A DNA stretch of 44,919 nucleotides from Oscillospiraceae bacterium. GTDB taxonomy: Bacteria > Bacillota > Clostridia > Oscillospirales > Oscillospiraceae. The stretch lies in NCBI GenBank assembly GCA_902783035.1, contig CACZPK010000044.1:1-44919 (forward strand), read 5' to 3'. Under the pieces are notes generated by a model. The model saw nothing but the letters and a program-made list of their open reading frames with translations. It was not told the origin of the DNA and ran no database searches. The position numbers were made by a program, and so were the translations under genes. Positions 1,992-44,413 of this stretch are shown piece after piece (positions within the stretch are counted from its first letter, which is position 1; the number at the start of each line of letters is the position of its first letter).

Positions 1992-3437
1992 TCAGCCGCC
2001 CGCAAGGGACACGGTAAAGGTAAATGTGGTCACGCCGTCTTCACTGCTGACGGCGATCCGTTCTTTATGTTGATCGAGGATGGTACGCACGACGTAAAGC
2101 CCCAGCCCCACGCCGTCCTTATCCTCTGATCGGGACTTGTCGCTTTTGTGGAACCGCTCAAACAGAAGCGGTATCTCGTCGGCGGGGATGGTGTCGCCCT
2201 CATTGCGGACGCTGACAAACGCCTTGCCGTTGGACACCGCGAGACCGAGGTAGAGCGTCGAACCCGCTCTGGCAAACTTCGTTGCGTTTTCCAGCAGGTT
2301 GTAGATGACCTGCGTAATCAAATCGTTGTCGCCGAGCACGGTAACGCTGCCGTCCGGAATATTGGCGTCCACATCGAGTCCGCGGTCGGTGATCTTCTTT
2401 TCCATGGAGATCAGCACCCGCCGCATACTCTCGCACAAATCGAACGGCACCTTGTGCAGTTCCCGCGACTGGAGCCGGGAAATATCCAGCATCCGGCGCA
2501 CGAGGCGCGAAAGGCGGCGGCTCTCATCGGAGATGATATGCAGGTATTGTTCCTGTTCTTCCGGCGGGATGGTGCCGTCCAGAATACCGTCTGTATAGCC
2601 GGCGATGGTCGTCATCGGCGTTTTCAGCTCATGGGAGACATTGGCAATAAACTCGCGGCGCTGGCGCTCCGTCTCCTGCAGGGAATCCGCCATATTGTTG
2701 AACGAAACGGCAAGCTCCGCGATCTCCGCCGGGGAGTCGTATCCGCGCATCCGCACATCAAAGTTGCCCTCGGCAAAGCGGCGCGTCGCCTCCGCCATTT
2801 CACTGATGGGGCGGGACTGGCGGATGCTCAGCCATGCGCTGACGACAAAGGCAAGCAGCAGCACCGTCGCTGACGTCATGAGGAACATGCCAAAGAATCC
2901 GCGCCACATCGCAGTCAGCGTACGCGCCTCCGTCACCGCCAGAACGATGCCGACGATTTGTCCCATAGATTCGATGGGAACGCCGACCGCAAAGTGTTTC
3001 GACTTGTAAATATCGCCGAGCGTCGTGCGCTCGTAGCTGTCATTGCCGCCGAGGATCTCCTGCGTCATGCCCTCCGGCAGTGTCAGCACCAATCCCTCCA
3101 GCGAGGTGTCCGAGGTAAGCAGCACGTTGCCCGCCAGATTGCAGATGAGAAAATCCTCATCCGTCACGGACGCGGCGAAGGTCGCCAACTCCCGCATACC
3201 GGAGAGGGAACCGCCCGCGACATACGCAGACACCATGCGCGCGACGACGCCTGCCTTTGTGCGCATATCCGCCTCGCGCTGGTTGCGCGTGTAGTTGTAA
3301 CTCAGCGCGAAGAACGACGCGCCCAGCAGCACCAGCGTCAGCAGCACCACGCCCGCCGTAAGCAGGAAGTTCTGCCAGTAAATGGTTCTGCCGCGCATCA
3401 GCCGTGTCGGTTTTGCTTTCTTTTCCCGTTCGCTCAC
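1992..3437 (-). CDS. sensor histidine kinase (HAMP-HisKA-HATPase)
   Basis: 481 residues. The first membrane segment is near residues 24-46, an extracytoplasmic domain of about 120 residues follows, and the second segment (MFLMTSATVLLLAFVVSAWL) leads into HAMP. HisKA has ANVSHELKTP with phospho-acceptor His269. HATPase_c has N box LLENATKFA and G box DGVGLGLYVV. It should phosphorylate the response regulator encoded just upstream. The start is GTG 3437, which overlaps the regulator's stop as GTGA, so translation is coupled. With HtrA downstream, the extracellular domain probably detects envelope or secretion stress (inference by analogy with CssS). Confidence 0.92.
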   Translation of the reverse strand: MSEREKKAKPTRLMRGRTIYWQNFLLTAGVVLLTLVLLGASFFALSYNYTRNQREADMRTKAGVVARMVSAYVAGGSLSGMRELATFAASVTDEDFLICNLAGNVLLTSDTSLEGLVLTLPEGMTQEILGGNDSYERTTLGDIYKSKHFAVGVPIESMGQIVGIVLAVTEARTLTAMWRGFFGMFLMTSATVLLLAFVVSAWLSIRQSRPISEMAEATRRFAEGNFDVRMRGYDSPAEIAELAVSFNNMADSLQETERQRREFIANVSHELKTPMTTIAGYTDGILDGTIPPEEQEQYLHIISDESRRLSRLVRRMLDISRLQSRELHKVPFDLCESMRRVLISMEKKITDRGLDVDANIPDGSVTVLGDNDLITQVIYNLLENATKFARAGSTLYLGLAVSNGKAFVSVRNEGDTIPADEIPLLFERFHKSDKSRSEDKDGVGLGLYVVRTILDQHKERIAVSSEDGVTTFTFTVSLAGG

Positions 3438-4117
3438 GCCTTGACCTCAAACTTATAGCCCACGCCCCATACCGTTTTGAGCTCCCATTGGTCGCTGATA
3501 CCCTCCACCTTCTCGCGCAGGCGTTTGACGTGGACGTCCACCGTGCGCGAGTCGCCGAAGTAGTCGAAGCCCCAGACCTCGTCGAGCAGCTGGTTGCGCG
3601 TGTAGACACGGTTTGGCGTTGCCGCCAGATGGTACAAAAGCTCCAGCTCCTTGGGCGGGGTGTCGATCTTCTTGCCGTCAACGATCAATTCATAGGAGTC
3701 GAGGTTGATGACCAGCTTGTCGAACGACAGCCTTTTGTGCGTGTCGTCGGGGATCTCCGTGCGGCGCAGCACCGCGTTGATACGCGCCAAAAGCTCTTTC
3801 ATTTCAAAGGGCTTGACCACATAGTCGTCCGCCCCCATCTCCAGGCCGTGGATGCGGTCATCCACCTCACCCTTGGCGGTGAGCATAATGACAGGGCACT
3901 TGGAGTTCTCACGGATGCGGGAAAGCACGCCCCAGCCGTCGAGCACGGGAAGCATGACGTCCAGCAGCACCAGATCCGGTTCTTGTGCCTGAAACTCCTC
4001 GACCGCTTTCCCACCGTCCGCGGCAAGACGCACCTCAAAGCCTTCCTTGTCCAAATACATCTTGATCAGGTTGGAGATATTGTTATCGTCTTCGACCACC
4101 AGAATATTGCGCGCCAT
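3434..4117 (-). CDS. OmpR/PhoB-type response regulator
   Basis: 227 residues. The N-terminal receiver has acidic pocket VEDD, phospho-Asp53 (LLDVMLP), the switch Thr in MLTAKGE and Lys in VVKPF. The C-terminal winged helix carries the typical TPPKELELLYHLA and RTVDVHVKRLREK stretches, so this is a DNA-binding transcription regulator. ATG 4117 follows a G-rich ribosome site. It is the first gene of the operon with the kinase (4-base overlap), htrA and the lipoprotein. It probably activates the operon under envelope stress (inference). The 82-base upstream gap holds a TATAGT box (minus strand, 4161-4156) but no convincing -35. Confidence 0.94.
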   Translation of the reverse strand: MARNILVVEDDNNISNLIKMYLDKEGFEVRLAADGGKAVEEFQAQEPDLVLLDVMLPVLDGWGVLSRIRENSKCPVIMLTAKGEVDDRIHGLEMGADDYVVKPFEMKELLARINAVLRRTEIPDDTHKRLSFDKLVINLDSYELIVDGKKIDTPPKELELLYHLAATPNRVYTRNQLLDEVWGFDYFGDSRTVDVHVKRLREKVEGISDQWELKTVWGVGYKFEVKA

Positions 4118-4199
4118 AAAACGCCCCCCTATTGGAAAATTGCTTTCGTTTTATCACTATACAACAGCTTTGCCCGGTTTTCCTGAACAATTCGTGAAT

Positions 4200-5357
4200 T
4201 TACGCCGCCGTCTCCGTAAGGCGTGCCAGCGTACAGTTGCTGTTTCGCAGGCTGGACAGAAGCGTGCCGATCATGCCCGCCGCGGCCTCGTCCGTGCCGA
4301 GCAGAACACGGCAGGTCCCGCGGTTCGCATCCGCAACGGAGAGAATCCGCGCACTGATCCGGCCGGCCGAGATGGCGCTTTCGCTGTAGTCCAGCGCAAA
4401 GCGCAGCGGGCAATAGCCCGCCGCCACCACGGCGTTAAGGGTCTCTTCCCTGGCTCCGTCCAGACGCACGAGCCGCGTCTTGGTGTTGGCAGCCGCCCAG
4501 ATGGCGCGGTTTCCTTCCTCAATCGCATGCAGCGCCGCTGCGGTGCCGCCGGAAGCGTCCACGTGCAGCGCAATCGTACCTGCCCCGGCACTGAGGCGGC
4601 GAAGCAGGTCACCCGCGCCGTCAAGCGCCTGCGGCGCAAAGAGAAACGTCCCCTGCCCGATGGGAAAATGCTCCAGCACCGCCTCGGCTTGTGCCGGCGA
4701 GGTCACATCCACCGCAAGGTAAACGGTACGCTCAGGCGTCGTCTCGCCTTGCGCCTCCGTTCCGCCTTGCGCCTCCCCTCCCCCGGAAGACGGTGTGGCC
4801 GGCTCCGTGGAACCGGCTGCGCTGGCGCGCTGGTATTGGTTGTATCTTGTGGCAAGGGCGTTGTCGGCGGCGTCAATGAAGGTTGTATCCGACAGCACTG
4901 CCGACTCGCTCTTGATGCGCACAAGGAAGCCGTAATTGATGCGCGTGTAAGTATATTGCAACCCGAAAAAGCGGCATATGACCTCAACCGGAAGAAACAC
5001 GATGTCGCCGCGTGTCACGGGCGGGCCGCCAAGCACCTGCCTGCTGCTGTTGTCATAGATCGTGCCCGCTGCAAAGTCGCAGATCAGCGCGCCGCTGCGC
5101 TGGCGGTAAAGCACCGCAGTCATCTTGTCGCGGCTGCGGGAGTAAAACGTGCCGAGATCACTGCCGTCAAATGCGGTATAGGCCACATAGAGCACCCCTC
5201 CCGCCCAAAACGGCATGGTCTCGTCGTTCAGGGGCAGCAGGTGGTCATTGACCGCGGTGAAATAGACCACATCCGCTGCTCCGGCGCTCTGCGGGGCAAG
5301 CACAACAAGCAGCAGTACCGCAGCGGTCAGGCATAGTACCCGTCGAAGAATGCGCAT
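4200..5357 (-). CDS. exported protein: copper-amine-oxidase-N-like domain plus degenerate NodB-like domain
   Basis: 385 residues with a signal peptide (LCLTAAVLLLVVLAPQSAGAA). Residues of about 30-150 look like the copper amine oxidase N-terminal type domain common in Clostridia (VNDHLLPLNDETMPFWAGG, FLPVEVICRFFGLQYTYT). After a linker rich in Thr, Gly and Glu, residues of about 205-385 follow the order of a polysaccharide deacetylase NodB fold: RTVYLAVDVTS where active enzymes have TFDDGP, then TFLFAP, then TIALHVDAS in place of the H(S/T)xxH motif. The catalytic Asp pair and metal-binding His residues are missing, so it is probably not an active deacetylase and may bind glycan or play a structural role. 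A GGGAGG ribosome site supports ATG 5357. The assignment is by pattern only; the signal peptide is certain. Confidence 0.7.
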   Translation of the reverse strand: MRILRRVLCLTAAVLLLVVLAPQSAGAADVVYFTAVNDHLLPLNDETMPFWAGGVLYVAYTAFDGSDLGTFYSRSRDKMTAVLYRQRSGALICDFAAGTIYDNSSRQVLGGPPVTRGDIVFLPVEVICRFFGLQYTYTRINYGFLVRIKSESAVLSDTTFIDAADNALATRYNQYQRASAAGSTEPATPSSGGGEAQGGTEAQGETTPERTVYLAVDVTSPAQAEAVLEHFPIGQGTFLFAPQALDGAGDLLRRLSAGAGTIALHVDASGGTAAALHAIEEGNRAIWAAANTKTRLVRLDGAREETLNAVVAAGYCPLRFALDYSESAISAGRISARILSVADANRGTCRVLLGTDEAAAGMIGTLLSSLRNSNCTLARLTETAA

Positions 5358-5486
5358 GGCCGCCTCCCTTCTCCGCGCGGGGTTTTCATGATAACGGTAT
5401 ATTTTTATAGATTATAACCATTTTTCTTCGTCTTTGCAATCCTTATCTCAGCCACACAAATGCACGATGCCGGAACGGCGTACGGT

Positions 5487-6506
5487 TTATCCGGCAACAG
5501 GCCCCACCCGCGCGCCGGGAAAGTAATGCTCCAGGATCTCGCGCGCATTCATACCCTCCAGCGCAAGCGCGTTTGCGCCGTACTGGCTCATGCCGACGCC
5601 GTGTCCGTAACCCGTAACGTGGAACGTAATGCCGTCTGCCTCCGCATCCACCGTGAATGCCGGGGAGCGCAGGGACAGGATCGTACGAAGCTCGTTCCCC
5701 CGCAACGTTACGCCGCCGACGTCGAGCGTCGTGACGAAGCCTGCGTCGCTTCGTGCCACGTTGGTAATCCAGCCTTCCGGCGCGCCGGATAAGTCGGCCT
5801 CGGGATGCGTCTGATGCAAAAGGGTGCGGAACTCCGCCGGAGAAAACGAGGCGACAGAATAATAGTTCGGTACCAGTTCCTCCGTCTCAGGGCTGTCCAC
5901 GCTTTGCAGATACGGCAGGTCACTCTGCCAAACCGCGCCCGCGTTTTGCGTGTGTCCCGCCGTGGACGAACAGAACACCGCAAGGATCGGTTCTCCGCCG
6001 TAGAGCACCGCCTGTCCGTCGGTCTGTGCAACGGCGCGTGCGAGCTTTTCCTCATAGTACAGCGCCATGCCGCCCCATTCTGCCGCGGCGTCCTCCGCAC
6101 TCTTGTACGCTTTGCAGCAGTTGATGTCGTCGCAGGCGTCCGCATCCGGATGGTTCGCGATCGGCCCTCCGCGCATCTTGTAGAGCGTATAGGTTCGCGC
6201 CGCGACCGCCTGTGCCTTAAGCGCCTCGATTTCAAAGGATGCCGGCATCTCCGCGCGCAACACACCCAGCAGATAGCGATCCATCGTCATCTCTTCCACC
6301 GCGCCGTCGTGCAACACGCGCAAGACCGTCTCTCCATCCGGCATACCGTGCGCTGCCTCTTCCGCAGCGGCAGGCGGTTCCGGCGCTTCCGGCAGCTCGC
6401 CCGCATCTTCCCGTGCGGCAGGGGCTCCGCCCCGTCCCGCCGCCGACCAGGCAAGCCCCCAGAGCAGGGCAAACAGCAGGGTCAAAATGCGAATCTCATG
6501 TTTCAT
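5487..6506 (-). CDS. spoIID: stage II sporulation protein D (SpoIID), peptidoglycan lytic transglycosylase
   Basis: 339 residues. An N-terminal membrane anchor (ILTLLFALLWGLAWSA) and an acidic/Pro linker precede the SpoIID domain: YLLGVLRAEMPASFEIEALK, which carries the catalytic Glu of the family, then AQAVAARTYTLYKM, the Cys-rich ADACDDINCCKAYKS, FCSSTAGHTQNA and a C-terminal GYGHGVGMSQYGANALA. SpoIID cuts denuded glycan strands during forespore engulfment together with SpoIIM and SpoIIP. ATG 6506 is preferred over ATG 6512 because GAGG lies eight bases before it. The enzyme indicates an endospore former. Its promoter region is shared with the divergent gene at 6624. Confidence 0.92.
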   Translation of the reverse strand: MKHEIRILTLLFALLWGLAWSAAGRGGAPAAREDAGELPEAPEPPAAAEEAAHGMPDGETVLRVLHDGAVEEMTMDRYLLGVLRAEMPASFEIEALKAQAVAARTYTLYKMRGGPIANHPDADACDDINCCKAYKSAEDAAAEWGGMALYYEEKLARAVAQTDGQAVLYGGEPILAVFCSSTAGHTQNAGAVWQSDLPYLQSVDSPETEELVPNYYSVASFSPAEFRTLLHQTHPEADLSGAPEGWITNVARSDAGFVTTLDVGGVTLRGNELRTILSLRSPAFTVDAEADGITFHVTGYGHGVGMSQYGANALALEGMNAREILEHYFPGARVGPVAG

Positions 6507-34465: not shown

Positions 34466-34993
34466 GTGTCGGCATGGGACGAACGGCGATTCAACAAAGA
34501 ACGCATCCTGATCTGTCTCTCCTCCTCCCCGTCCAATGAAAAGGTGATCCGGGCCGGAGAAAGGCTGGCTGAGGCCTTTCAGGGGCGGCTTATCGCCCTT
34601 TTTGTAGAGACTCCCGACTACCCCGCCACGGAAGAGCGGGACAAGGCAAGACTCCGGACAAACATGGCGTTGGCTGAGTCTCTGGGCGGCAAGATTGAAA
34701 CGGTTGCCGGTGACGACGTGCCCTACCAGATCGCGGAATACGCCCGGCAGGCATCCGTCACCAAAATCGTTCTGGGCAGGAGCAATGCCTCCGCCGGACT
34801 GCCGGGTCGCCGCTCTCTGGTGGACCGGGTGGTGGAGCTGATTCCCGAGTTGGATCTCTACATTATCCCCGACCGGGCCGACGGGGTCTATGCGCCGCAC
34901 CGGGTCCGCCGTGTGGAGCTTCATCCAGATACTACCCCGTCGGTCGGAATTCCACACCCTATGATGAGGAACAGGAACGCCCGGCCGCCCTGA
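34466..34993 (+). pseudogene. KdpD-like sensor kinase, 5' part (universal stress domain)
   Basis: From GTG 34466 the frame encodes a KdpD-type universal stress domain: ERILICLSSSPSNEKVIRAG, VPYQIAEYARQASVTKIVLG and SLVDRVVELIPELDLYIIPD. After about residue 153 (VRRVELHP) the frame runs into unrelated sequence and stops. The expected next domain, four membrane helices (DUF4118), is missing, and the kinase part follows in a different frame from about 34920. It probably belonged to a trkH-trkA-kinase-regulator potassium operon. Confidence 0.7.
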
Positions 34994-35937
34994 CTTCCTT
35001 TTCGAAAAACTGTCCCGCCGGGGCGTCGACCCAACTGCATCCCCATGCTGATTACCTGTACTTCTGCCTGCGGGGCGGAGAGAAAATCTACGGCGTCGTG
35101 GGCATCGGCGTCAAAACCGATCCGTTGGAATCCTCCGAACGGAGCGTAGCGCTGTCGGTTATCGGGGAATGCGCCCTGACCTTGGAAAATCACCAGACGG
35201 CCCGGGCAAAAGAAAGCGCTGATCTGCTGGCTGAAAAGGAACGGGTCCGCGCCGACCTGCTGCGGGCGATCTCCCATGATCTGCGGACGCCCCTGACCTC
35301 CATTCTGGGCAATGCCGACAACCTGATGGGTCACGGGGAGGACTTTGACGCCGAGACCCGGCAGGGGCTTTACGCCGCCATCTATGACGACTCTCTCTGG
35401 CTCACCGGCATTGTGGAAAATCTGCTTTCGGCCAGTCGGATCGAGGAGGGCGAGGTCAACCTCCGCAGAACATCCGAGCTGATCAGCGACATCGTGGACG
35501 AAGCGGCAGAGCATCTGGGCCGAAAGCTGGAGCACTACAATTTGGAAATCCGGCATGCCGACGATCTGCTGCTGGTCAGCGTCGACGCCCGCCTGATGGT
35601 TCAGGTGGTGGTCAATCTGCTGGACAACGCGGTCAAATATACTCCTGCCGGCTCCCATATCTGGATAGAGACTTTTCGGGAGAGCGACATGGCGCACGTC
35701 CGGGTATCCGACGATGGGCCGGGCATTCCCGACCGGGACAAGCCCCGGCTTTTTGAAAAGTTCTACACCGGCGAGGGTCCCGTAGCCGACAGCCGCCGAA
35801 GTCTGGGACTGGGTCTTTCCCTGTGCAAGTCCATCGTAACCGTGCACGGCGGAACCATCTGGGTGTCCGACCGAAAGCCCGGAGGCGCACAATTTGAGTT
35901 TACCGTACCGGTTGGGGAGGTGAAGGTTCGTGAATGA
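34927..35937 (+). pseudogene. KdpD-like sensor kinase, 3' part (GAF end, HisKA, HATPase)
   Basis: In the second frame the protein resumes inside the GAF-like domain (RYYPVGRNSTPYDEEQERPA, LYFCLRGGEKIYGVVGIG). It continues through HisKA (LLRAISHDLRTPLTSILGNA, with phospho-acceptor His) and HATPase (VVNLLDNAVKYTPAGSHIWI, DDGPGIP, LGLGLSLCKSIV), which are intact. No ribosome site is found at the junction; internal GTG 35098 is the first possible start but falls inside the domain. Without the sensor and membrane domain it would be cytoplasmic and unregulated if expressed. The stop overlaps the regulator's start by eight bases. Confidence 0.75.
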
Positions 35938-36376
35938 TCCGTTGATCCTGGTGGTGGAAGACGATAAGGCGGTCCGCAATCTGATCACCACCACACTGAA
36001 AACCCACGACTACCGTTTTCTCACCGCCGCCACCGCCGGTGAGGCTCTTCTGGAGTCCACCTCCCACAATCCGGACGTCATGCTTCTGGATCTGGGGCTT
36101 CCCGACATGGACGGCGTTGAGGTAATCCGGCGGGTGCGCTCCTGGTCCAACCTGCCGATTATCATCAGTGCGCGGAGCGAGGACACCGACAAGATCGAGG
36201 CTCTGGACGCCGGCGCGGACGACTATCTGACCAAGCCCTTTTCGGTGGAGGAAGTGCTGGCACGTCTGCGCGTGACCCAGCGGCGGCTTGCCCTGTTGGG
36301 GCGCGACGGCGCCTCCCCGGTGTTCCGGAACGGAGAGTTGGAGATCGACTATGCTGCCGGAGTGGCCAGGCTGTGA
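35930..36376 (+). CDS. KdpE-like response regulator, DNA-binding domain lost
   Basis: 148 residues where KdpE has about 230. The receiver domain is complete (LVVEDDKAVRNLITTTL, phospho-Asp in MLLDLGLPDMDG, Thr/Ser ISARSE, Lys in YLTKPF), followed by the linker and the first beta strands (VFRNGELEIDYAAGVARL). It then stops exactly where the winged helix should begin. GTG 35930 lies inside the end of the kinase gene. As it is, the protein could accept phosphate but not bind DNA. The deletion parallels those in trkH-trkA and kdpD just upstream. Confidence 0.85.
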   Translation: MNDPLILVVEDDKAVRNLITTTLKTHDYRFLTAATAGEALLESTSHNPDVMLLDLGLPDMDGVEVIRRVRSWSNLPIIISARSEDTDKIEALDAGADDYLTKPFSVEEVLARLRVTQRRLALLGRDGASPVFRNGELEIDYAAGVARL

Positions 36377-36390
36377 AAGGAGGGATCACC

Positions 36391-36777
36391 GTGTTGTGGA
36401 TCGGACTGCTGATTGTGTTCCTGCTGGGCATCGGAGCAGGACGTTTTACGCGCGGCAAAAGCGCGGCGGACGCGGAGCCGATCATACCCGCAGCCGGTTT
36501 GAAGCCCTCCATAGAGGAGATCGGACAGCTCCTGCGCATGGAGAGCGAAGATCGGGAGGTCCGGTTCCGGGAGACTTACGCCAGTCCTTATGAACCGGTT
36601 TATGAGCTGGATCTTGTAGACAACGAAACGCAAAAGCATCTGGGTGGAGTCTCCCTGACGGGCACAGCCGTGATGCGTCTGCGGGATATCCTGAACGCAC
36701 GGGAGAAATGGACGGAGGAAATGCCTTCCCACCGGGAAAAGCCGCATACAGCAAGGCAGGAAAAAACATCAACGTAA
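36391..36777 (+). CDS. membrane-anchored protein of unknown function
   Basis: 128 residues. One N-terminal membrane segment (LWIGLLIVFLLGIGAGRF) is followed by a charged cytoplasmic region. I recognise no family. GTG 36391 has AAGGAGG eight bases upstream. It follows the truncated response regulator after 14 bases, so it belongs to the same potassium-related operon. A hairpin (36785-36818) follows. Confidence 0.65.
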   Translation: MLWIGLLIVFLLGIGAGRFTRGKSAADAEPIIPAAGLKPSIEEIGQLLRMESEDREVRFRETYASPYEPVYELDLVDNETQKHLGGVSLTGTAVMRLRDILNAREKWTEEMPSHREKPHTARQEKTST

Positions 36778-36979: not shown

Positions 36980-38212
36980 ATGAAAGTACTGTTTGAAAAG
37001 AAAAACCTGTTTTTGCGCGTGGCCGTAGGCTTTGTGCTGGGCGTCGTTCTGGGCTTCGCCCTGCCGGAATTCAGCATTGCGATCAAGGTCGTGGGTGACA
37101 TCTACCTCAACCTGATCAAGATGATGATCATTCCCATCGTGTTCTGCGCGGTGTTCTGCGGCATCGCCAATATCCGCGACGGCGCGCTGCTGCGCAAGGT
37201 CGGCGTGCGCACCGTGCTGCTGTACGTTGTGATGTTCATTGCAAGCGCTGCGATCTCTCTGGCAATCGCCTATGTGATCCGCCCGGGTCTCGGCACTGTG
37301 TTTGAGAATGCGCCGGAGTACGCCGGCGATATCACCAACCCGACGGTCAGCAGCTTCTTAACGACCATCGTTCCCACCAATATCATTCAGGCGGCCGCCT
37401 CGGGCAGCACGCTGCCGGTGATTCTCTTCACCATCGTGTTTGCCATCGCGATTGTGGCGGTGGGCGATGCGGGAAAGCCCGTGCTCGATTTCATGAACAG
37501 CTTGTCCGCCGCATTCTTTAAGATGCTCGGCTATTTCATGGAGATCTCGCCCGTCGGTGTCATGTCCCTGATGGCCTTTTCCGTGGCGCAGTACGGCGCG
37601 GGCATTTTCGGTGCGCTTGCAAAGTACATCCTGTGCTGCTGGCTGTGCTGTGTCGCCGTGTTCTTCCTGGCAATGGCGCTGCCCACCTGCCTGTATACGG
37701 GTGTCTCGTTCTGCACGCTGCTGCGCGCCTGCGGCAAGGTTTCGCTGGTCACGCTGTCCACCACCTCTTCGGCGGCAACGCTGCCCACCACCATCAACGT
37801 TTCGATGGAGGATCTCGGCGCGCCCGAGGGCATTTCCAAGTTCACACTGCCTCTGGGCTGCACGATCAACATGTGCGGCGGCGCGTGCTCGTTCTGCTGC
37901 CTCGCCGTGTTCGTTTCCGACTTCTACAGCATCAACCTGCCCTTCGGCACCATCGTATTTCTGGTGCTTGTGGCGACGCTGATCAACATGGCGGCCCCCG
38001 GCATCCCCGGCGGCGGCGTGGTGCTGGGCGCCTCGTTCCTCTCGATCCTGGGTCTGCCCATTGATCTGATGGGTCCCATCAGCGGTTTCTACCGTTTGCT
38101 CGACATGGCGTTTACGACGATCAACGTGGAGGGCGACGTGGCAGCCAACCTGATGATTGCAAAGAGCGTCGGTGAATACGACGGCGCAACGGTCAGTCGG
38201 AAAGCGGCATGA
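36980..38212 (+). CDS. SDF-family dicarboxylate/amino acid:cation symporter
   Basis: 410 residues with the eight-helix, two-hairpin layout of the GltP/SstT family. The Ser-rich hairpin STTSSAATLPTTINVSM is intact. The usual NMDGT motif that binds Na+ and substrate reads NMCGGA here (Asn297, Cys299), so the Asp is lost. SstT-type members also lack that Asp, which suggests changed cation coupling. PGIPGGGVVLGAS in the second hairpin is normal. GGGAGG precedes ATG 36980, and the stop overlaps the next start (ATGA). Its partner is an aromatic amino acid biosynthesis fusion, so an aromatic or related substrate is possible (inference). Confidence 0.92.
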   Translation: MKVLFEKKNLFLRVAVGFVLGVVLGFALPEFSIAIKVVGDIYLNLIKMMIIPIVFCAVFCGIANIRDGALLRKVGVRTVLLYVVMFIASAAISLAIAYVIRPGLGTVFENAPEYAGDITNPTVSSFLTTIVPTNIIQAAASGSTLPVILFTIVFAIAIVAVGDAGKPVLDFMNSLSAAFFKMLGYFMEISPVGVMSLMAFSVAQYGAGIFGALAKYILCCWLCCVAVFFLAMALPTCLYTGVSFCTLLRACGKVSLVTLSTTSSAATLPTTINVSMEDLGAPEGISKFTLPLGCTINMCGGACSFCCLAVFVSDFYSINLPFGTIVFLVLVATLINMAAPGIPGGGVVLGASFLSILGLPIDLMGPISGFYRLLDMAFTTINVEGDVAANLMIAKSVGEYDGATVSRKAA

Positions 38213-39633
38213 GGATCGCGTATCAGGGCATACCGGGCAGCAATTCGGAGGCTGCCAGCAAGGTATTTGTTGAAAACCGGAATCTGGATGCGCCCGTCTA
38301 TCTTCCGGCGGTGCATTCCGCCGGCGTCGTGGAACTGCTGAGCAGCGGGAAAGCGGACTACGGCGTACTGGCAACGCAGAATCTTGTAGCCGGAGAGGTG
38401 CTGGAGACGAAAAAAGCGCTCAGCGACTTTTCCTACCGCATTGTGGACGCGCAGTGGCTCCCCGTTCACCACTGCCTGTTTGTCAAGCATCCCGGCGTTG
38501 CCAAAATCGGACGCATCGCCTCGCACGTGCAGGCTCTCGGTCAGTGTGCGCACAACCTGTCCCGCCGGTTCCCGGGCATTCCCCTGCAAGAAATGGAGGA
38601 CACAGCCATTGCGGCGCGCTATCTGGCAGACGGATGTCTGCCGGAGGACATCGCCGTGCTTTGCCGGAAAAACGCGGGCGAGTCCTTCGGGCTGCATCTC
38701 GTGGCGGAGAATCTGGAAGACGATTCCCGCAACATGACGGAATTTATGCTCATCCAGCCGATCCGCCGCATGAGCAAAACGATTATTGTCTGCGGTTTGG
38801 GACTTCTCGGCGGCTCCATGGCGAAGGCAATCAAGCGCCACACCGACTGCACCGTGCTGGGCTGGAACCGCACCCGCTCCGTGGCAGAGCAGGCGCTGCA
38901 CGACGGTGCGATCGACAAGATCGCGGAGGACGCGGACTTCGCTTCCTGCGATATGCTGATTCCGGTGCTGTATCCCGAGGCAACGCTGGCGTTTCTGAAG
39001 GAGAAGGTGCCCGCAATGAAACCGGGCTCCGTGGTCGTCGATCTGGTGGGCGTCAAAACCCGTCTGGTCGAGGAAATCGGCGCATTGGCTGCGAAACACG
39101 GCGTCCGTTACACCGGCGGGCACCCCATGGCAGGACTGGCGCGGGCAGGTTATGAGCGCTCTTTTGCCGATCTGTTTCGCGGTGCAAGCATGATCCTTGT
39201 TCCCACCGCAGCCACCGCGCCCGGCGACGTCGAGGAATTGAGCGATTTCTTCCGCGGCCTTGGTTTCGGAACGATCAATGTATGTAACGCGGAAACGCAC
39301 GACCATATGATCGCGCACACCTCGCAGCTCGCGCACATCGTGTCCAACTCCTATGTAAAAAGCCCCGTATCCTCTGCGTACAGCGGATTTTCGGGCGGAA
39401 GCTACAAGGATATGACCCGCATCGCGTGCTTGAACGAGAAGGTGTGGAAGGAACTGTTCCTCTGGAACCGTGCCGCGTTGCTGCCAGAGATCGACGATCT
39501 GATCGCCAACATGACGCACCTGCGTGACGCCATCGAGGCACAGGACGCAGATCGGCTGGAAACGCTGCTGCGGGAGGGGCGCGAGGCTAAGGAGCACATT
39601 GACGCGCTGAACCCCAGCCAGCCCTCAGACTGA
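38209..39633 (+). CDS. prephenate dehydratase-prephenate dehydrogenase fusion (PheA-TyrA)
   Basis: 474 residues. Residues 1-185 follow the prephenate dehydratase fold (RIAYQGIPGSNSEAA, SHVQALGQCAHNLSRRFPGI, then LVAENLEDDSRNMTEFMLI). The catalytic TRF motif reads TEF (Thr177, Glu178), and the PIENS stretch is LATQNLVAG, so activity is uncertain. From residue 189 a prephenate/arogenate dehydrogenase follows (IIVCGLGLLGGSMAKAI, GGHPMAG and HTSQLAHIVSN). No ACT domain is present on either part. The dehydrogenase looks functional. Both halves use prephenate and lead to phenylalanine and tyrosine. ATG 38209 overlaps the symporter's stop; a strong terminator follows. Confidence 0.88.
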   Translation: MRIAYQGIPGSNSEAASKVFVENRNLDAPVYLPAVHSAGVVELLSSGKADYGVLATQNLVAGEVLETKKALSDFSYRIVDAQWLPVHHCLFVKHPGVAKIGRIASHVQALGQCAHNLSRRFPGIPLQEMEDTAIAARYLADGCLPEDIAVLCRKNAGESFGLHLVAENLEDDSRNMTEFMLIQPIRRMSKTIIVCGLGLLGGSMAKAIKRHTDCTVLGWNRTRSVAEQALHDGAIDKIAEDADFASCDMLIPVLYPEATLAFLKEKVPAMKPGSVVVDLVGVKTRLVEEIGALAAKHGVRYTGGHPMAGLARAGYERSFADLFRGASMILVPTAATAPGDVEELSDFFRGLGFGTINVCNAETHDHMIAHTSQLAHIVSNSYVKSPVSSAYSGFSGGSYKDMTRIACLNEKVWKELFLWNRAALLPEIDDLIANMTHLRDAIEAQDADRLETLLREGREAKEHIDALNPSQPSD

Positions 39634-39664: not shown

Positions 39665-39701
39665 AAGAGCCCCGAAAGCTGTGACTTTCGGGGCTCTTTT
39701 T
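39665..39701. terminator. bidirectional intrinsic terminator
   Basis: AAGAGCCCCGAAAG (39665-39678) pairs perfectly with CTTTCGGGGCTCTT (39685-39698), followed by TTT. The A-rich left side gives T's on the other strand too. It lies between pheA-tyrA (+) and the permease-kinase (-). Confidence 0.9.
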
Positions 39702-39781: not shown

Positions 39782-42703
39782 TCAGGTTCCATCGCTCTGC
39801 GGCCCGGCAATGACACGCGCCAGTTCCCGCATCATCTGTGACACATTGATCGGCTTTGCGATATGCCCGTTCATGCCTGCGTCTTTCGCCGCCTGCACAT
39901 CCTCGGCAAAGGCGTTCGCCGTCATCGCAAGGATCGGGATCGCCGCCAGCTGCGCATCGTGCAGCGCGCGGATCGCCCCCGTTGCCTCGTAGCCGTTCAT
40001 GACAGGCATCTGCACGTCCATCAGGACCGCCTGATAGTCGCCCGGTGCGGACGAAGCGATCCGTTCGTATGCCTGCCGTCCGTTTTCCGCAACATCGACC
40101 GTAAAGCCCGCATCCTCCAGAATCAGCGTGGCGATCTCGCGGTTGATCTCGTTGTCGTCCACAAGCAACAGCCGGCAATGCGAGAGATCCGGCCCGCGCA
40201 GCACGTCTTCCGGTTCTTCCGTCACTTCATCGTTTTCCTCTGCAAGCGGGAAGTCCAGACGGATGATGAATTCCGTGCCCCTGCCCTGCTCGCTCCGCAC
40301 GTCGATGGTGCCGCCCATCAGGTCGACAATGCTTTTGGTGATCGCCATGCCAAGGCCTGTGCCCTGGATACCGGCGGCGGTCTTTTCGCGGGAATACGCG
40401 TCAAACACGGTTGCGGCAAATTCCGGGCTCATGCCCATGCCCGTGTCCCGGACGCGCAGCTCATAGGAGCCGCTTCCCTCCGGCGCTTCCGCCTGAGAGA
40501 GCGTTACGTCGATGCTGTCGCCCTCCGGCGTAAATTTATAAGCGTTGCTGATCAGATTCAGCAGCACGCGGTTGAGACGCTTGCCGTCACACAGCACGAA
40601 CCGATTTTGCACGCCGGAGGTATCCACCGTATAGCGGAGCCCCTTGCCCTGCATCTGCGCGGAGAACATGTCCCGCACGTCGTCCAGCGCCTTGACCAGA
40701 TCCGTCCGGGCGATGTCCAGCTCCATCTTGCCGTTTTCGATGCGGCTCATTTCCAGCACATCGTTGATCAGCGCCAGCAGGTGCTGGCTGGACGCCTCGA
40801 TCTTGTCCAGATACGCGGCGATTCCGGGCGGCACGTCGGTCTCCTTCTTTGCAAGGATCGTGTAACCGATGATGGCGTTCATCGGCGTGCGGATGTCGTG
40901 GCTCATGTTGGAGAGGAACGTGCTCTTGGCGCGGTTGCTCTCCTCCGCCTGTATTTTTCGCGCCTCCATTTGTTTCTCGCGCTGTGTGATGGACTTGTAG
41001 ATACTGAACATGATGGACAGTGCGATCACAATGACCGCCATCTGAATCCAGCTGTTGTGTATCATCTCGCGGTCTACTTCGTCCATCTTTTGCTGGAGAT
41101 AACGCGTCTCCTCCGTCGCCTCGTCTTCATCCAGCACAATGCCGTGCTCTTCCAGCTCCGTCATGTTATACCGGTGAATCTGGTCGATCGCGCGTTCCGT
41201 CGTGATGTTCGTCGCCTCGCGAAGCCAAAGCATGGAGGTGAAGAAGATGAGGAACAGCAGCGCGATCCAGACCGCGGTCGTCTTGCCGAAATGACCGTTT
41301 GTATCATGGCTGAACACAACAAGGAAGAAGCGGAACCCGAGCACGCTCCACACGATCAGGATCAGATAGGATTCCATGGACAGCCTGCTGACCGTCCAGA
41401 GGTTCGGCACCATGAAATAGAGGAAAAGCAGGAGCGACAGCGCGGCGCCCGCCGCCCCCGTGATGCGCACGGGCGTGATCTTGTCCTTGCTTGCCAGCTT
41501 GTACGCCGCCGCAGAGGTATAGGCATAGGCGATCAGCGCACCGATGGTGTTCACGTCCACGATCCAGCCGACAGCGGCACGGCCGACAAAGGGCACGACA
41601 ACGGAAATCGCCATGAGAAACTTGAATGCGTTGGCGGGGTTGCCGTTTCCGTCCAGCTCGCCAAACCAGCCGGGAAGGATACCGTCTTCCGCCATGGCAT
41701 ACATCAGCCGGCTTGCGGCGATGCAGTTGCCGACAAGGCCCGTGACGATACCCGCGGTCACGGTAATGCCCAGAACATACAGTCCTGCCTCCCCCATCGC
41801 CGTATTCGCCGCGTAGAATGTGGGCAGTCCCGCAAGTCCGTCCAGATTGCCGAGGTCGTCGATGTACTCCGCCCAGCTGCCGTATTCCGCCGGCGTCGCC
41901 GCGGCAGCAATCAGGGTGAGCAGCACATAGCACATCGCTCCCGCCGCCAGCGCCCCAAGCATGATCCAGATGGTCTTTCTGGGTGAAAACCGGAAGCCCT
42001 GCGCCGAGTTGGAAATAGACTCAAAGCCGACAAACGCCCACGGCGCCATCACAACGATGCTGGCGATTTGACGGACGGCACACGTTGCGTTCGGCGCAAA
42101 GGCAGGCGTCAGCTTTTCCATGCCGCCGGCGCCCAACACGGCTACGGCGCAGATGATGACGCCGCCGACCAGTATGAGAGCCATGGCGGTCTGAATCATG
42201 ATCGCCAGCCGCTTGCTCTTCAGGCAAATCCATCCGAAGCCCAGAATGATCGCAAGCGTCAGCAAAATCTCGCCCAGATAGACGTGATAGCCCGCCACCT
42301 GATAGTGGAATCCCCACTGGATCGCATCGCCGAGCAGGTTGCGCGCGATCAGCACGATGGCGGTGGCATTCGCCCACATGATGGCAATATAGACCAGCAT
42401 CAGGAACCACGCGCTGAGCAGCCCGTGGTCGTAGCCGAACGCCCGAATGGAATACGTCAGCGTACCGCCGGCGTCCGGAAAACGGTTCATGAGATAGTGG
42501 TAATTGATACCGATGACAAGCACGACCAGCGCGCCAACGATTATGCCAATCGCCGTACCGGCCGGTCCTGCCAGCGGCAGAAAGGTCGTCCCCGGCATGA
42601 CGAACGCGCCCCATCCGACTGCACAGCCGATAGAGAGCGCCCAAACCTCCAGAGGGGACAAATATCGGGTCAACCCGCCGTTCGTTTCTTGCTTATCCGC
42701 CAT
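39782..42703 (-). CDS. APC amino acid permease fused to a hybrid histidine kinase
   Basis: 973 residues. Residues of about 10-500 form a 12-helix APC-superfamily permease (LEVWALSIGCAVGWGAFVMP, the APC substrate loop; MLVYIAIMWANATAIVLIAR; AIVMA-like SIVVMAPWAFVGFESISNSA). An extracytoplasmic stretch rich in Glu, a further membrane helix (MAVIVIALSIMFSIYKSI) and a coiled coil lead to HisKA with His602 (FLSNMSHDIRTPMNAIIGY), HATPase (LLNLISNAYKFTPEG, GTGLGMAIT) and a receiver with Asp896 (VLMDVQMPVMNGYEA). AAGGA stands before ATG 42703. No output domain and no separate regulator gene are nearby. It is like CbrA, in which a transporter domain is the sensor, but with an APC fold. Proposed role: an amino acid receptor or transceptor (inference). 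Confidence 0.93.
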   Translation of the reverse strand: MADKQETNGGLTRYLSPLEVWALSIGCAVGWGAFVMPGTTFLPLAGPAGTAIGIIVGALVVLVIGINYHYLMNRFPDAGGTLTYSIRAFGYDHGLLSAWFLMLVYIAIMWANATAIVLIARNLLGDAIQWGFHYQVAGYHVYLGEILLTLAIILGFGWICLKSKRLAIMIQTAMALILVGGVIICAVAVLGAGGMEKLTPAFAPNATCAVRQIASIVVMAPWAFVGFESISNSAQGFRFSPRKTIWIMLGALAAGAMCYVLLTLIAAAATPAEYGSWAEYIDDLGNLDGLAGLPTFYAANTAMGEAGLYVLGITVTAGIVTGLVGNCIAASRLMYAMAEDGILPGWFGELDGNGNPANAFKFLMAISVVVPFVGRAAVGWIVDVNTIGALIAYAYTSAAAYKLASKDKITPVRITGAAGAALSLLLFLYFMVPNLWTVSRLSMESYLILIVWSVLGFRFFLVVFSHDTNGHFGKTTAVWIALLFLIFFTSMLWLREATNITTERAIDQIHRYNMTELEEHGIVLDEDEATEETRYLQQKMDEVDREMIHNSWIQMAVIVIALSIMFSIYKSITQREKQMEARKIQAEESNRAKSTFLSNMSHDIRTPMNAIIGYTILAKKETDVPPGIAAYLDKIEASSQHLLALINDVLEMSRIENGKMELDIARTDLVKALDDVRDMFSAQMQGKGLRYTVDTSGVQNRFVLCDGKRLNRVLLNLISNAYKFTPEGDSIDVTLSQAEAPEGSGSYELRVRDTGMGMSPEFAATVFDAYSREKTAAGIQGTGLGMAITKSIVDLMGGTIDVRSEQGRGTEFIIRLDFPLAEENDEVTEEPEDVLRGPDLSHCRLLLVDDNEINREIATLILEDAGFTVDVAENGRQAYERIASSAPGDYQAVLMDVQMPVMNGYEATGAIRALHDAQLAAIPILAMTANAFAEDVQAAKDAGMNGHIAKPINVSQMMRELARVIAGPQSDGT

Positions 42704-42823
42704 ACCACATGTCCTTCCCATGAAAAAGCCAATCCGTACGCCCTGCATCCATCGTTTTCTTCCCTCGGCACGGCACATCGGAACACCGTGCCGGAGGTCT
42801 CCGTCATGCAGAGGTTGCCGCGT

Positions 42824-43582
42824 TCACTTGCGCGAAAGGATGATCCGGTATTCGTTCAGATCGTACCCGCTGCGCAGGAAACTCTCCACCATGTCCTTTG
42901 CATTTTCGTCCGCCTTCTCCAACAGCTGCTTGGCAAGTGCCTTCCGTTCCGCGCTCTTCTTCAACTCCGCGTTGGAGGTGTCGAAATCACTGATGCTGAA
43001 CGGGTTGAACAGGTTCTGTTTTTCGTCGTAGAGCCGGAAGCTGTCCTCCACGATCTCATGGCTGATGATCCGTGCCTTTGGCAGCTCCACCTCAATCGTC
43101 ATGGTTTCGTCGTTCTTCCGGAGGGAAATCTGTCCGAAGTCGATTCCCGCCTTGATAACCCCGTCATAGCTGTAAATATAGCTTGCCTTTGTCCACGGCA
43201 GCGTGACCGAATGGCCGAACAGGTCGGCGGCGTGCGCACTTTCAAAGGTGCCGACCTCGGTATAGTTGTACTCCTGTGTCACAAGCTCCCCGACGTTTTT
43301 CAAGCCGTCCCGGATGGTCTCCGCGGTTATCGTCTGACGCACTTCGACGATCTGCGTTTCGCCGGGCGTCTCAACCCGAACAACGTCGACGTTCTCGTTG
43401 CCCGCCTGATAGCCCGCATCATAGGCTTCCTTCGCCTGGGCGTCGGCAGTTTTCCGCATTTGTGCGAAACCGGCACACATCCCGCAGATGAGAACCGCAA
43501 TCACCAGCACAAGGCATGCAATAAGGCGCGCGGGGCTCTTGTGTCCGCTGTCTGTCTCTTCGATTTCCGGTCTGATTCGCAT
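42824..43582 (-). CDS. DUF4230 family membrane-anchored protein
   Basis: 252 residues. A cytoplasmic start, one membrane segment (LIACLVLVIAVLICGMCAGF), a short linker and a DUF4230-like domain (ELVTQEYNYTEVGTFESA, YIYSYDGVIKAGIDFGQI, IEVELPKARIISHEIVEDSF). Its biochemical role is unknown. ATG 43582 is chosen: GGGAGG lies ten bases upstream, and the TTG nine bases further up touches the ribosome site. It lies 120 bases upstream of the permease-kinase gene in the same direction and may share its transcript. A promoter at 43645-43673 drives it. Confidence 0.85.
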   Translation of the reverse strand: MRIRPEIEETDSGHKSPARLIACLVLVIAVLICGMCAGFAQMRKTADAQAKEAYDAGYQAGNENVDVVRVETPGETQIVEVRQTITAETIRDGLKNVGELVTQEYNYTEVGTFESAHAADLFGHSVTLPWTKASYIYSYDGVIKAGIDFGQISLRKNDETMTIEVELPKARIISHEIVEDSFRLYDEKQNLFNPFSISDFDTSNAELKKSAERKALAKQLLEKADENAKDMVESFLRSGYDLNEYRIILSRK

Positions 43583-43644
43583 CTCGTCCAAGCCTCCCCC
43601 GTCAGAATTTCGGCAACAGATTCGTCACTGTGGTCACGCTTGCA

Positions 43645-43673
43645 TTTTATCGCACGGGTACAATCGCTGTCAA
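43645..43673 (-). promoter_or_regulatory. promoter of the DUF4230 gene
   Basis: On the minus strand a perfect -35 TTGACA (43673-43668) is followed by ATAAAA at 17 bases or GATAAA at 16 bases (43650-43645 or 43651-43646). Confidence 0.55.
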
Positions 43674-43753
43674 CATTTGCCCGTCCCATATCTCCGGATG
43701 GACAGGCGCCGCCGCCCAACCGCGTTGACCGCCCGTCCCGCCGGGCCAAATCC

Positions 43754-44413
43754 CTATTTTTCCGCGCGAAAAAAGCTCAAGACCGGCAAAATGACATACA
43801 GCAGTATCGCCCACCGCGGACAGAAAAAGGCAAGTCCGATCAGGGCGGCATTCAAAATCAGCAGATAACCGATCCGGGAGATCATCATCGCGACAAACAG
43901 TTTCAGGTGCCGTTCAAAGCGCTTGCGCACCGCCGCATAATATAAAAATTGTTGCAGCAGCGTCGCAAGAAAATAAACCACGCCGAAATTCATCGCGGAA
44001 TAATGATTGGGTTCATTCATGATCCACTTTGTGGTGGCTGGTATCAGCGCAAGGGATGCGAGAAACAGGAAATTCGCCACAACGACCATGTGATCCGCTT
44101 CGCGTACGGACTGGAAGATGGATTTATTGTCGTACCAGAAATCCGCAATGATAAAAAAGCTCACCAGAAAAGCGAGGATCGACCAGAGAAACCCCCAATA
44201 GGTTTTCTCTGAGGTCGGATACGGTATTTCCAGCATCATGACCGTGATAAAAATTGCGATCACGCCGTCGTTCAGCGCCGACAAATGCCCGATCATGCTG
44301 GTTTTCAGCTTTTCGGCGTTTTCCGCCTTCCGTTCCAGCATGTGTTCATACTTGGCGACACTCTCTTCATCCAAATGCCGCCGGATAAAGCCGGTTTTGA
44401 TCCGTTGTCTCAT
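43754..44413 (-). CDS. TMEM175 (DUF1211) family potassium channel-like protein
   Basis: 219 residues. A basic cytoplasmic start is followed by the signature helix HLSALNDGVIAIFITVMMLE, where TMEM175 channels have FSDGVFAIAITLLVLEI with the pore-lining residues. Four or five further helices follow (FLWSILAFLVSFFIIADFWY, MVVVANFLFLASLALIPATT, NFGVVYFLATLLQQFLYYAA). Bacterial members are tetrameric K+-permeable channels. The first Phe of the signature is replaced by Leu-Asn. No promoter link to the DUF4230 gene is needed, as both have their own. Confidence 0.85.
   Translation of the reverse strand: MRQRIKTGFIRRHLDEESVAKYEHMLERKAENAEKLKTSMIGHLSALNDGVIAIFITVMMLEIPYPTSEKTYWGFLWSILAFLVSFFIIADFWYDNKSIFQSVREADHMVVVANFLFLASLALIPATTKWIMNEPNHYSAMNFGVVYFLATLLQQFLYYAAVRKRFERHLKLFVAMMISRIGYLLILNAALIGLAFFCPRWAILLYVILPVLSFFRAEK

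Follow-up and report, generated by a model that had tools for sequence, protein, structure and literature searches.

Yeast Ssy1, the SPS sensor, is of the APC permease type. This eukaryotic protein signals via Ptr3 and the protease Ssy5 and has no fused kinase. In bacteria, CbrA and CrbS (MxtR) join a LeuT-fold transporter to a histidine kinase, and CrbS ends in a receiver domain (REC) (PMC7918813, PMC13022988); CbrA has been termed a rare transceptor (PMC13022988). KsAmt5 likewise combines a transporter fold with a histidine kinase, and its transporter part binds but transports inefficiently (PMC8534201, PMC10433425). In the LysP-CadC system of E. coli, the membrane regulator has a lysine permease as its co-sensor (PMC5936718). 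With CbrA-type proteins set aside, a 2024 paper regarded the earlier fold-level transceptors as exclusive to eukaryotes and an S-component fold as the first in prokaryotes (PMC11109136). Here we describe a protein of 973 amino acids, encoded in a 44,919-nucleotide stretch of an Oscillospiraceae genome (assembly GCA_902783035.1, contig CACZPK010000044.1; the whole stretch is called the window below), in which an APC-type permease is fused to a hybrid histidine kinase. Transporter-kinase fusions with SLC5 (CbrA, CrbS) and Amt (KsAmt5) are known already; the permease-kinase family described here is real, conserved and modular and would represent a variant of the transporter-derived receptors. Among the top-ranked results in full-text literature, a scope outside which most subscription papers fall, no paper surfaced that describes a fusion of an APC permease with a histidine kinase or GGDEF domain, and the literature on transceptors and c-di-GMP likewise showed none; given this limited coverage, the result is no proof of absence.

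The gene and its parts are as follows.

39782-42703, minus strand: permease-histidine kinase-receiver fusion, 973 amino acids plus stop (translation, Pfam, GGGAAGGA before the start)
42712-42719, minus strand: ribosome-binding-like GGGAAGGA before ATG 42703 (sequence)
41309-42703, minus strand: APC-type permease part, residues 1-465 (Pfam AA_permease_2, 15-438)
40931-41308, minus strand: coupling part, residues 466-591, with an extra membrane helix, an extracytoplasmic helical hairpin, a second extra membrane helix and a signalling helix (structure model, linker search, spacing)
40730-40930, minus strand: HisKA (DHp), residues 592-658, with His602 (Pfam; His602 invariant in 48/48 rows)
40247-40588, minus strand: HATPase_c, residues 706-819, with N720, D753, G755, G757 and G781-G785 invariant (Pfam, alignment)
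39824-40168, minus strand: receiver, residues 846-960, with Asp896 (Pfam, alignment)

The frame is free of internal stops and could be read upstream as far as 42778; GGGAAGGA at 42719-42712 lies 8 nucleotides before the ATG at 42703, which is therefore the best start. All four Pfam domains (AA_permease_2, HisKA, HATPase_c and Response_reg) score well over their cut-offs. AA_permease_2 (PF13520) covers the whole domain with 75.2 bits against a cut-off of 27 and is matched by all 48 aligned full-length rows, and the permease part has the LeuT-type fold of AdiC and ApcT, proteins of which AdiC, like GkApcT and CAT1, differs from the fusion in having no signalling domains. H602, N720, D753/G755/G757, G781-G785, D896 and K950 are invariant in the 48 rows, so that the phospho-acceptor histidine, the N, G1 and G2 boxes and the receiver aspartate and lysine of a hybrid histidine kinase are all present. 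A preliminary description, made from the DNA without database searches, had already read the frame as a single permease-kinase-receiver protein and had named His602 and Asp896; the intact frame, its four domains and the invariance of both residues bear this out.

Named genome contigs were scanned with an alignment of 15 fused permease-and-linker sequences (13 with a histidine kinase, 2 with GGDEF), which yielded at least 597 candidate stretches. At least 587 of these are relatives, and the 80 best matches were retrieved; they are referred to as the 80 loci. Seven of these run off their contig and 73 have a complete open reading frame (ORF), which in 70 cases encodes permease, histidine kinase and REC. 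The other three are L116, with a second REC, L076, with a split kinase match and a REC, and L059, which ends after the kinase (795 amino acids) and has the remainder in the next ORF. The window comes from a fragmented draft genome (G000; 2.5 Mb, 154 contigs, 85% complete), of which it forms one contig, as would suit faulty assembly or binning in which separate permease and kinase genes became joined. The relatives refute this explanation and leave it with next to no probability: rather than the separate permease and kinase genes that the preliminary description had considered, 72 of the 73 complete ORFs, in separate assemblies, contain permease, kinase and REC, which rules out an artefact. The fused relatives include long scaffolds that carry no label as metagenome-assembled genomes (L039, L096, L101), and cultured, named strains such as Butyrivibrio sp. 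WCD3002 and MB2005 are among their sources. By record name, 78 of the 80 loci are from Bacillota (45 Clostridia, 33 Negativicutes), one is from Lentisphaerota and one is unplaced. At least 53 of the 80 names, which are shortened, mention a ruminant or ruminant stomach or carry RUG or RUI, the codes of rumen genome series. The distribution is patchy, with matches in 19 of 394 genomes at the level of the order (E 1e-40; 14 of the 19 carry the fused form by ORF reading), in 26 of 250 at that of the family and in 16 of 398 at that of the phylum (E 1e-30; four with the fused form). Paralogues within one genome also occur, two permease-kinase-REC proteins each in JAFUVF01 (L065, L068) and JAFSXN01 (L071, L114).

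A tree was built from the permease parts of 50 rows: 32 kinase fusions, four of 13 GGDEF fusions and 14 stand-alone permeases; L126, L128 and L131 (distant stand-alone permeases in which no range was found) and L124, L125, L134, L137 and L138 were left out. All 36 fused rows form one clade with support 100/100, and the 14 stand-alone rows lie across that branch. The four GGDEF rows form one clade nested within the fused one, again with 100/100. The simplest reading is a single fusion event among the sampled rows, followed later by an exchange of the output for a diguanylate cyclase. The preliminary description had missed that this sensor occurs joined to GGDEF as well. The outputs seen are kinase-REC, kinase-REC-REC and, in 13 genes (L139, L140, L148, L149, L169 twice, L170, L172, L173, L174, L176, L177, L178), GGDEF; one of the two L169 proteins (1445 amino acids) has an added REC-GGDEF-EAL, and L140 lacks the GGDEF motif, apparently because of a frame shift near its end. 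Two genomes of another family have tandem permease-kinase pairs with no REC and with seemingly decayed kinase parts (L145:6507-11406 in G750, L146:396-5382 in G422). A Pfam scan, which covered the L145 pair, detected no HisKA there, and HATPase_c scored 24.7 bits (below cut-off) in one copy and a clear 54.8 bits in the other. A CheB-like gene adjoins the L145 pair and a similar-looking gene the L146 pair, and these proteins are possibly pseudo-kinases tied to chemotaxis. Near the L145 pair, at 2859-5837, there is also a hybrid kinase with extracellular solute-binding domains (SBP_bac_3).

A 12-helix permease has both ends inside, so two added helices are needed to keep a kinase in the cytoplasm. 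The AlphaFold2 model of the fusion (mean pLDDT 80.8, pTM 0.63) places two membrane-crossing helices after the permease, one at 477-518 and then one continuous helix, 526-620, that runs into the DHp domain; the preliminary description had only one extra membrane helix at this place and is to be corrected accordingly. The spacing between L562 and H602 is 40 residues in 47 of the 48 rows, though the length of the outer loop varies. The outer hairpin is the least conserved structured part (majority fraction 0.48 versus 0.64-0.79); only the short stretch that connects the ATPase with the receiver falls below it, at 0.38. Used as a query, the linker (465-592) matches 32 of the 35 other fused rows, including all four with GGDEF, and none of 17 stand-alone rows; the three that it misses, L024, L026 and L141, form one clade in the tree, and L024 and L026 have a short hairpin. 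Pfam gives no match between 438 and 592, a result that leaves aside whether it holds a STAC model; the unbroken helix from the membrane into DHp in the AlphaFold2 model leaves no room for a four-helix STAC domain. PAS is found neither by Pfam in the window protein nor among the eight families matched by the 48 rows; one GGDEF fusion, L170, does contain a PAS stretch.

These features set the protein apart from the described systems. Membership of the SLC5/STAC family of CbrA was rejected, as Pfam reports AA_permease_2 and AA_permease and no SSS, and there is neither room for STAC nor a PAS domain. Membership of the Amt-kinases was rejected as well: no Amt family is among the Pfam matches, and KsAmt5, with its Amt fold and ammonium, has an unrelated transporter family. 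LysP and CadC differ in being two separate proteins in contact, CadC being a one-component regulator. The preliminary description had presented an APC sensor as a different solution from the SLC5 symporter of CbrA. The transporter-kinase fusion is real, but the SLC5 part of CbrA has a LeuT-type fold too (PMC13022988), so that APC and SLC5 represent two families of one fold. Besides AA_permease_2 in place of SLC5, the occurrence in Bacillota and the GGDEF sisters, the larger difference from CbrA and CrbS lies in the coupling part, where no STAC or PAS is present and a two-helix hairpin leads straight into DHp.

The substrate site was compared by alignment to E. coli AdiC, using 102 fused rows (related to each other, including ORFs with open ends and two possible duplicate pairs with contigs of equal length, L028/L041 and L011/L084) and 14 stand-alone rows; the columns compared are the substrate-site positions of AdiC, which itself differs from the fusion at several of them. 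G30, W31, G32 and W222 (AdiC W202) never vary among the fused rows; as 11 of the 14 stand-alone rows share the tryptophan at W31, this residue is no mark of fusion. E228 (AdiC E208) is glutamate in 101 of the 102 fused rows and aspartate in all 14 stand-alone ones, the position of AdiC W293 is asparagine in 89 of 102 as against phenylalanine in 13 of 14, and that of V212 is glutamine in all 14 stand-alone rows and histidine (39), asparagine (33), glutamine (27) or phenylalanine (3) in the fused. It follows from these differences that the site was kept but re-set around the origin of the fused clade. GkApcT couples through a lysine in transmembrane helix 5. In CbrA, K196 is the coupling lysine of that helix (PMC13022988). 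The core of the helix (170-189) has no lysine in any of the 102 fused rows, and likewise none in the 14 stand-alone rows; coupling by such a lysine is thus not evident in the fusions, a lack that they share with the stand-alone permeases. As to the substrate, seven NCBIfam models match the permease part, all far below cut-off (the best, BcaP, with 73.5 against 690), and no clear pathway emerges from the neighbouring genes; the solved lysine-specific permease 9eyd matches the family profile with E 7.5e-07. Apart from the fusion, PF13520 matches just one protein in the 85% complete genome of the window, a KimA-type potassium transporter; there is thus no set of PF13520 carriers to which the fusion would belong.

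The genomic links of the family appear to lead to c-di-GMP and not to a DNA-binding regulator, a direction that the preliminary description had not recognized. In three family genomes, G981 (L171), G928 (L169) and G830 (L198), representing three genera (g457, g432, g474), the same-strand order is kinase-REC, REC-degenerate GGDEF-EAL, Hpt and permease-kinase-REC-REC, with short gaps or overlaps between the genes; in G928 the cluster continues with permease-GGDEF-REC-GGDEF-EAL and then permease-GGDEF. An alignment of eight of the REC-EAL proteins shows intact EAL and DDFG(S/A)GYSS motifs together with a degenerate GGDEF. On contig C23 of the window's genome, a gene for a REC-degenerate GGDEF-EAL protein of 690 amino acids (L162:2609-4681) is followed after 15 bp by one for an Hpt of 123 amino acids (L162:4697-5068); the two proteins are 36% (over 559 amino acids) and 46% (over 122) identical to their counterparts in G981. 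Pair and fusion are likewise separate in G071, G943 and G379. The preliminary description had supposed that the phosphate would need an Hpt protein elsewhere, which is a good guess: a stand-alone Hpt is encoded in the same genome, and its homologues adjoin the fusion in some relatives.

Counted over 79 of the 80 loci (L043 was dropped) and the window, histidine kinase, REC, GGDEF or EAL genes account for 23 of 139 direct neighbours versus 8 of 297 genes three to six positions off; genes below 90 amino acids were not counted, and some are hidden behind longer ORFs on the opposite strand. In L096 and L103, from Butyrivibrio sp. WCD3002 and MB2005, a REC-GGDEF gene precedes the fusion and a kinase-REC gene follows it; a kinase-REC-Hpt gene adjoins it in L114. 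No general partner common to all 80 relatives was found. The commonest neighbour cluster is a rhodanese-like lipoprotein, as judged from its sequence (22 of 79 loci and 21 of 25 genes at position +1, as in L074), and no functional link between it and the fusion was found. In G071, of the same genus as the window, one of two fusions is followed by a BMP-type substrate-binding protein, a call that rests on a weak NCBIfam match (45 bits against a cut-off of 400), and then by a kinase-REC-REC protein (L143:853-4442).

On the basis of these data, we propose that a small ligand, probably an amino acid or a related compound, would bind at the usual central site of the APC permease fold, and that the resulting conformational change would pass through the two added membrane helices and one long helix to the dimerisation helix of the kinase, where it would set autophosphorylation at His602. 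The phosphate would move from His602 to Asp896 of the protein's own receiver, thence to a stand-alone Hpt encoded elsewhere and finally to the receiver-EAL protein encoded beside that Hpt, a predicted c-di-GMP phosphodiesterase, changing the c-di-GMP level; a GGDEF fusion of this sensor would have a direct effect on c-di-GMP. This chain as a whole seems to us to have the balance slightly in its favor. It is suggested by the domains, the single fused clade, the shared linker, the output change to GGDEF and the Hpt and REC-EAL clusters in relatives; the first steps rest on anatomy and the last on gene neighbourhood and co-occurrence. The conserved site, the fixed linker spacing and the output change bear, indirectly, on a possible transceptor role.

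The co-occurrence evidence comes from 36 family genomes that we chose and that are related to each other. At E 1.2e-29 or better (46-67% identity), matches to the Hpt of the window's genome occur in 8 of 14 genomes with permease-kinase fusions, in neither of two with GGDEF fusions only and in none of 20 with neither, where the lack of a fusion means no match at E 1e-40. A Fisher test of 8/14 versus 0/22 gives 1e-4, uncorrected for relatedness and with the cut-off set afterwards. Within the window's genus, the Hpt of fusion-bearing G071 is 67% identical and those of two genomes without the fusion 38% and 36%; in genus g3 the corresponding values are 52% for G379, with the fusion, and 37% and 42% for G036 and G151, in which none was found.

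Several points weigh against the proposed chain. The Fisher value overstates independence, since the genomes were chosen and are related, and at 1e-6 the counts are 12 of 14, 0 of 2 and 8 of 20, so that the Hpt contrast depends on the post hoc cut-off of 1.2e-29; the best match in a genome without a fusion reaches 1.5e-22 (G151). In G941 no REC-EAL match lies near the Hpt within the 7.5 kb taken, and the fusion of G896 (L199) is preceded by a frame that ends in an Hpt, with no REC-EAL match seen there. No more than 6 of 79 loci have a stand-alone Hpt at a distance of up to six genes, to which an Hpt-like gene of 251 amino acids in L115 may be added; L039 and L040 belong both to these six and to the four best matches of the window protein. 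The window fusion is itself an orphan, with its putative Hpt and REC-EAL partners encoded on a different contig, and the same pair could serve the genome's nine other hybrid kinases (counted as matches over both kinase and REC). The structure model is that of a monomer, and ligand binding, the direction of the response, phosphotransfer and any loss or retention of transport are inferred. An alternative is a receiver that does no more than store or drain phosphate for a kinase serving some other response regulator, the Hpt/REC-EAL link being a coincidence of signalling-rich clusters; in its favor, the genome has 10 Hpt matches (9 over cut-off) and 33 GGDEF matches, and most named relatives have no Hpt nearby. 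Set against it, however, are the identical gene order in three genera, with its short gaps and overlaps, and the closer Hpt of G071 and G379 compared with fusion-less genomes of their own genera, and we regard this explanation as unlikely.

The input side of the chain also has competitors. The permease could still function as a transporter, with the kinase joined to it signalling flux or occupancy, so that uptake and signalling go together as in CbrA; this is the strongest of the alternatives and yet, in our view, distinctly short of probable, for the fused clade has a substrate-site pattern of its own, and the sole other PF13520 protein of the genome is of the KimA type. Alternatively, the permease part might be a plain membrane anchor or dimerisation device, with membrane state, pH, ions, a partner protein or the outer hairpin as the input. 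Turgor, ion gradients and other membrane stimuli have indeed been predicted for SSS-type sensor kinases (PMC7918813), but the permease is about as conserved as the ATPase (majority fraction 0.68 versus 0.70) and more so than the outer hairpin, the whole of it was kept through the change to GGDEF, and several substrate-site positions are fixed or nearly so in the clade; an anchor thus appears quite improbable.

In the window itself, the Pfam-recognized neighbours of the fusion are, on one side, DUF4230 and TMEM175 proteins and, on the other, a dicarboxylate symporter and a prephenate dehydratase-dehydrogenase. A scan of these neighbours found neither a regulator nor an Hpt gene directly adjoining the fusion, in agreement with the preliminary description, which had noted the lack of a DNA-binding partner. 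Three further features may bear on its transcription.

42824-43591, minus strand: DUF4230 protein, 120 bp upstream of the fusion, possibly co-transcribed with it (Pfam)
43644-43673, minus strand: promoter-like TTGACA-18-TAAAAT before the DUF4230 gene (consensus scan only; 4 found versus 2.2 expected)
39665-39698, minus strand: terminator-like stem-loop with a 15-pair stem, 3' of the fusion (consensus scan only; 7 found versus 5.2 expected)

With the promoter-like site before DUF4230 and the hairpin after the fusion, the two genes may share one transcript; both signals are consensus matches whose numbers are little above those in shuffled sequence. DUF4230 is absent from the 30 largest neighbour clusters listed for fusions elsewhere. 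Together with the gene for the potassium-channel-like TMEM175 protein it occupies 42824-44413 upstream on the same strand as the fusion, and the KimA gene lies elsewhere in the genome. On the plus strand, 38209-39633 encodes a single protein with prephenate dehydratase and prephenate dehydrogenase domains (PDT, PDH_N, PDH_C; Pfam), an unusual pairing of two branches of aromatic amino acid synthesis; the start of its gene overlaps the end of that for the dicarboxylate/amino acid symporter (36980-38212). Further away, also on the plus strand, the translations of 34466-36593 contain universal-stress-like, histidine kinase and receiver pieces in neighbouring frames, which look as if two regulator genes had been broken by frame shifts or sequence errors. 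The genome as a whole is dense in c-di-GMP and phosphorelay signalling genes.

As a more far-reaching scenario, which we offer tentatively and consider rather unlikely as a whole, the family could be a bacterial counterpart of Ssy1: an APC permease would have ceased to be mainly a carrier and turned receptor once, early in the clade, its site would have been re-set and the hairpin added as an adaptor, and the receptor would then have been plugged into opposing arms of a single second-messenger network, a cyclase by fusion and an EAL protein by a His-Asp-His-Asp relay. Both arms share a cluster in one genome or more, so that, if this is true, c-di-GMP would be set from the amino acid supply of the gut by the ratio between two permease receptors. 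Through its several outputs and its recurring downstream partner, the clade makes the step from transporter motion to kinase or cyclase output testable between siblings that share one linker, and it offers a candidate link between nutrient supply and c-di-GMP in bacteria of the gut.

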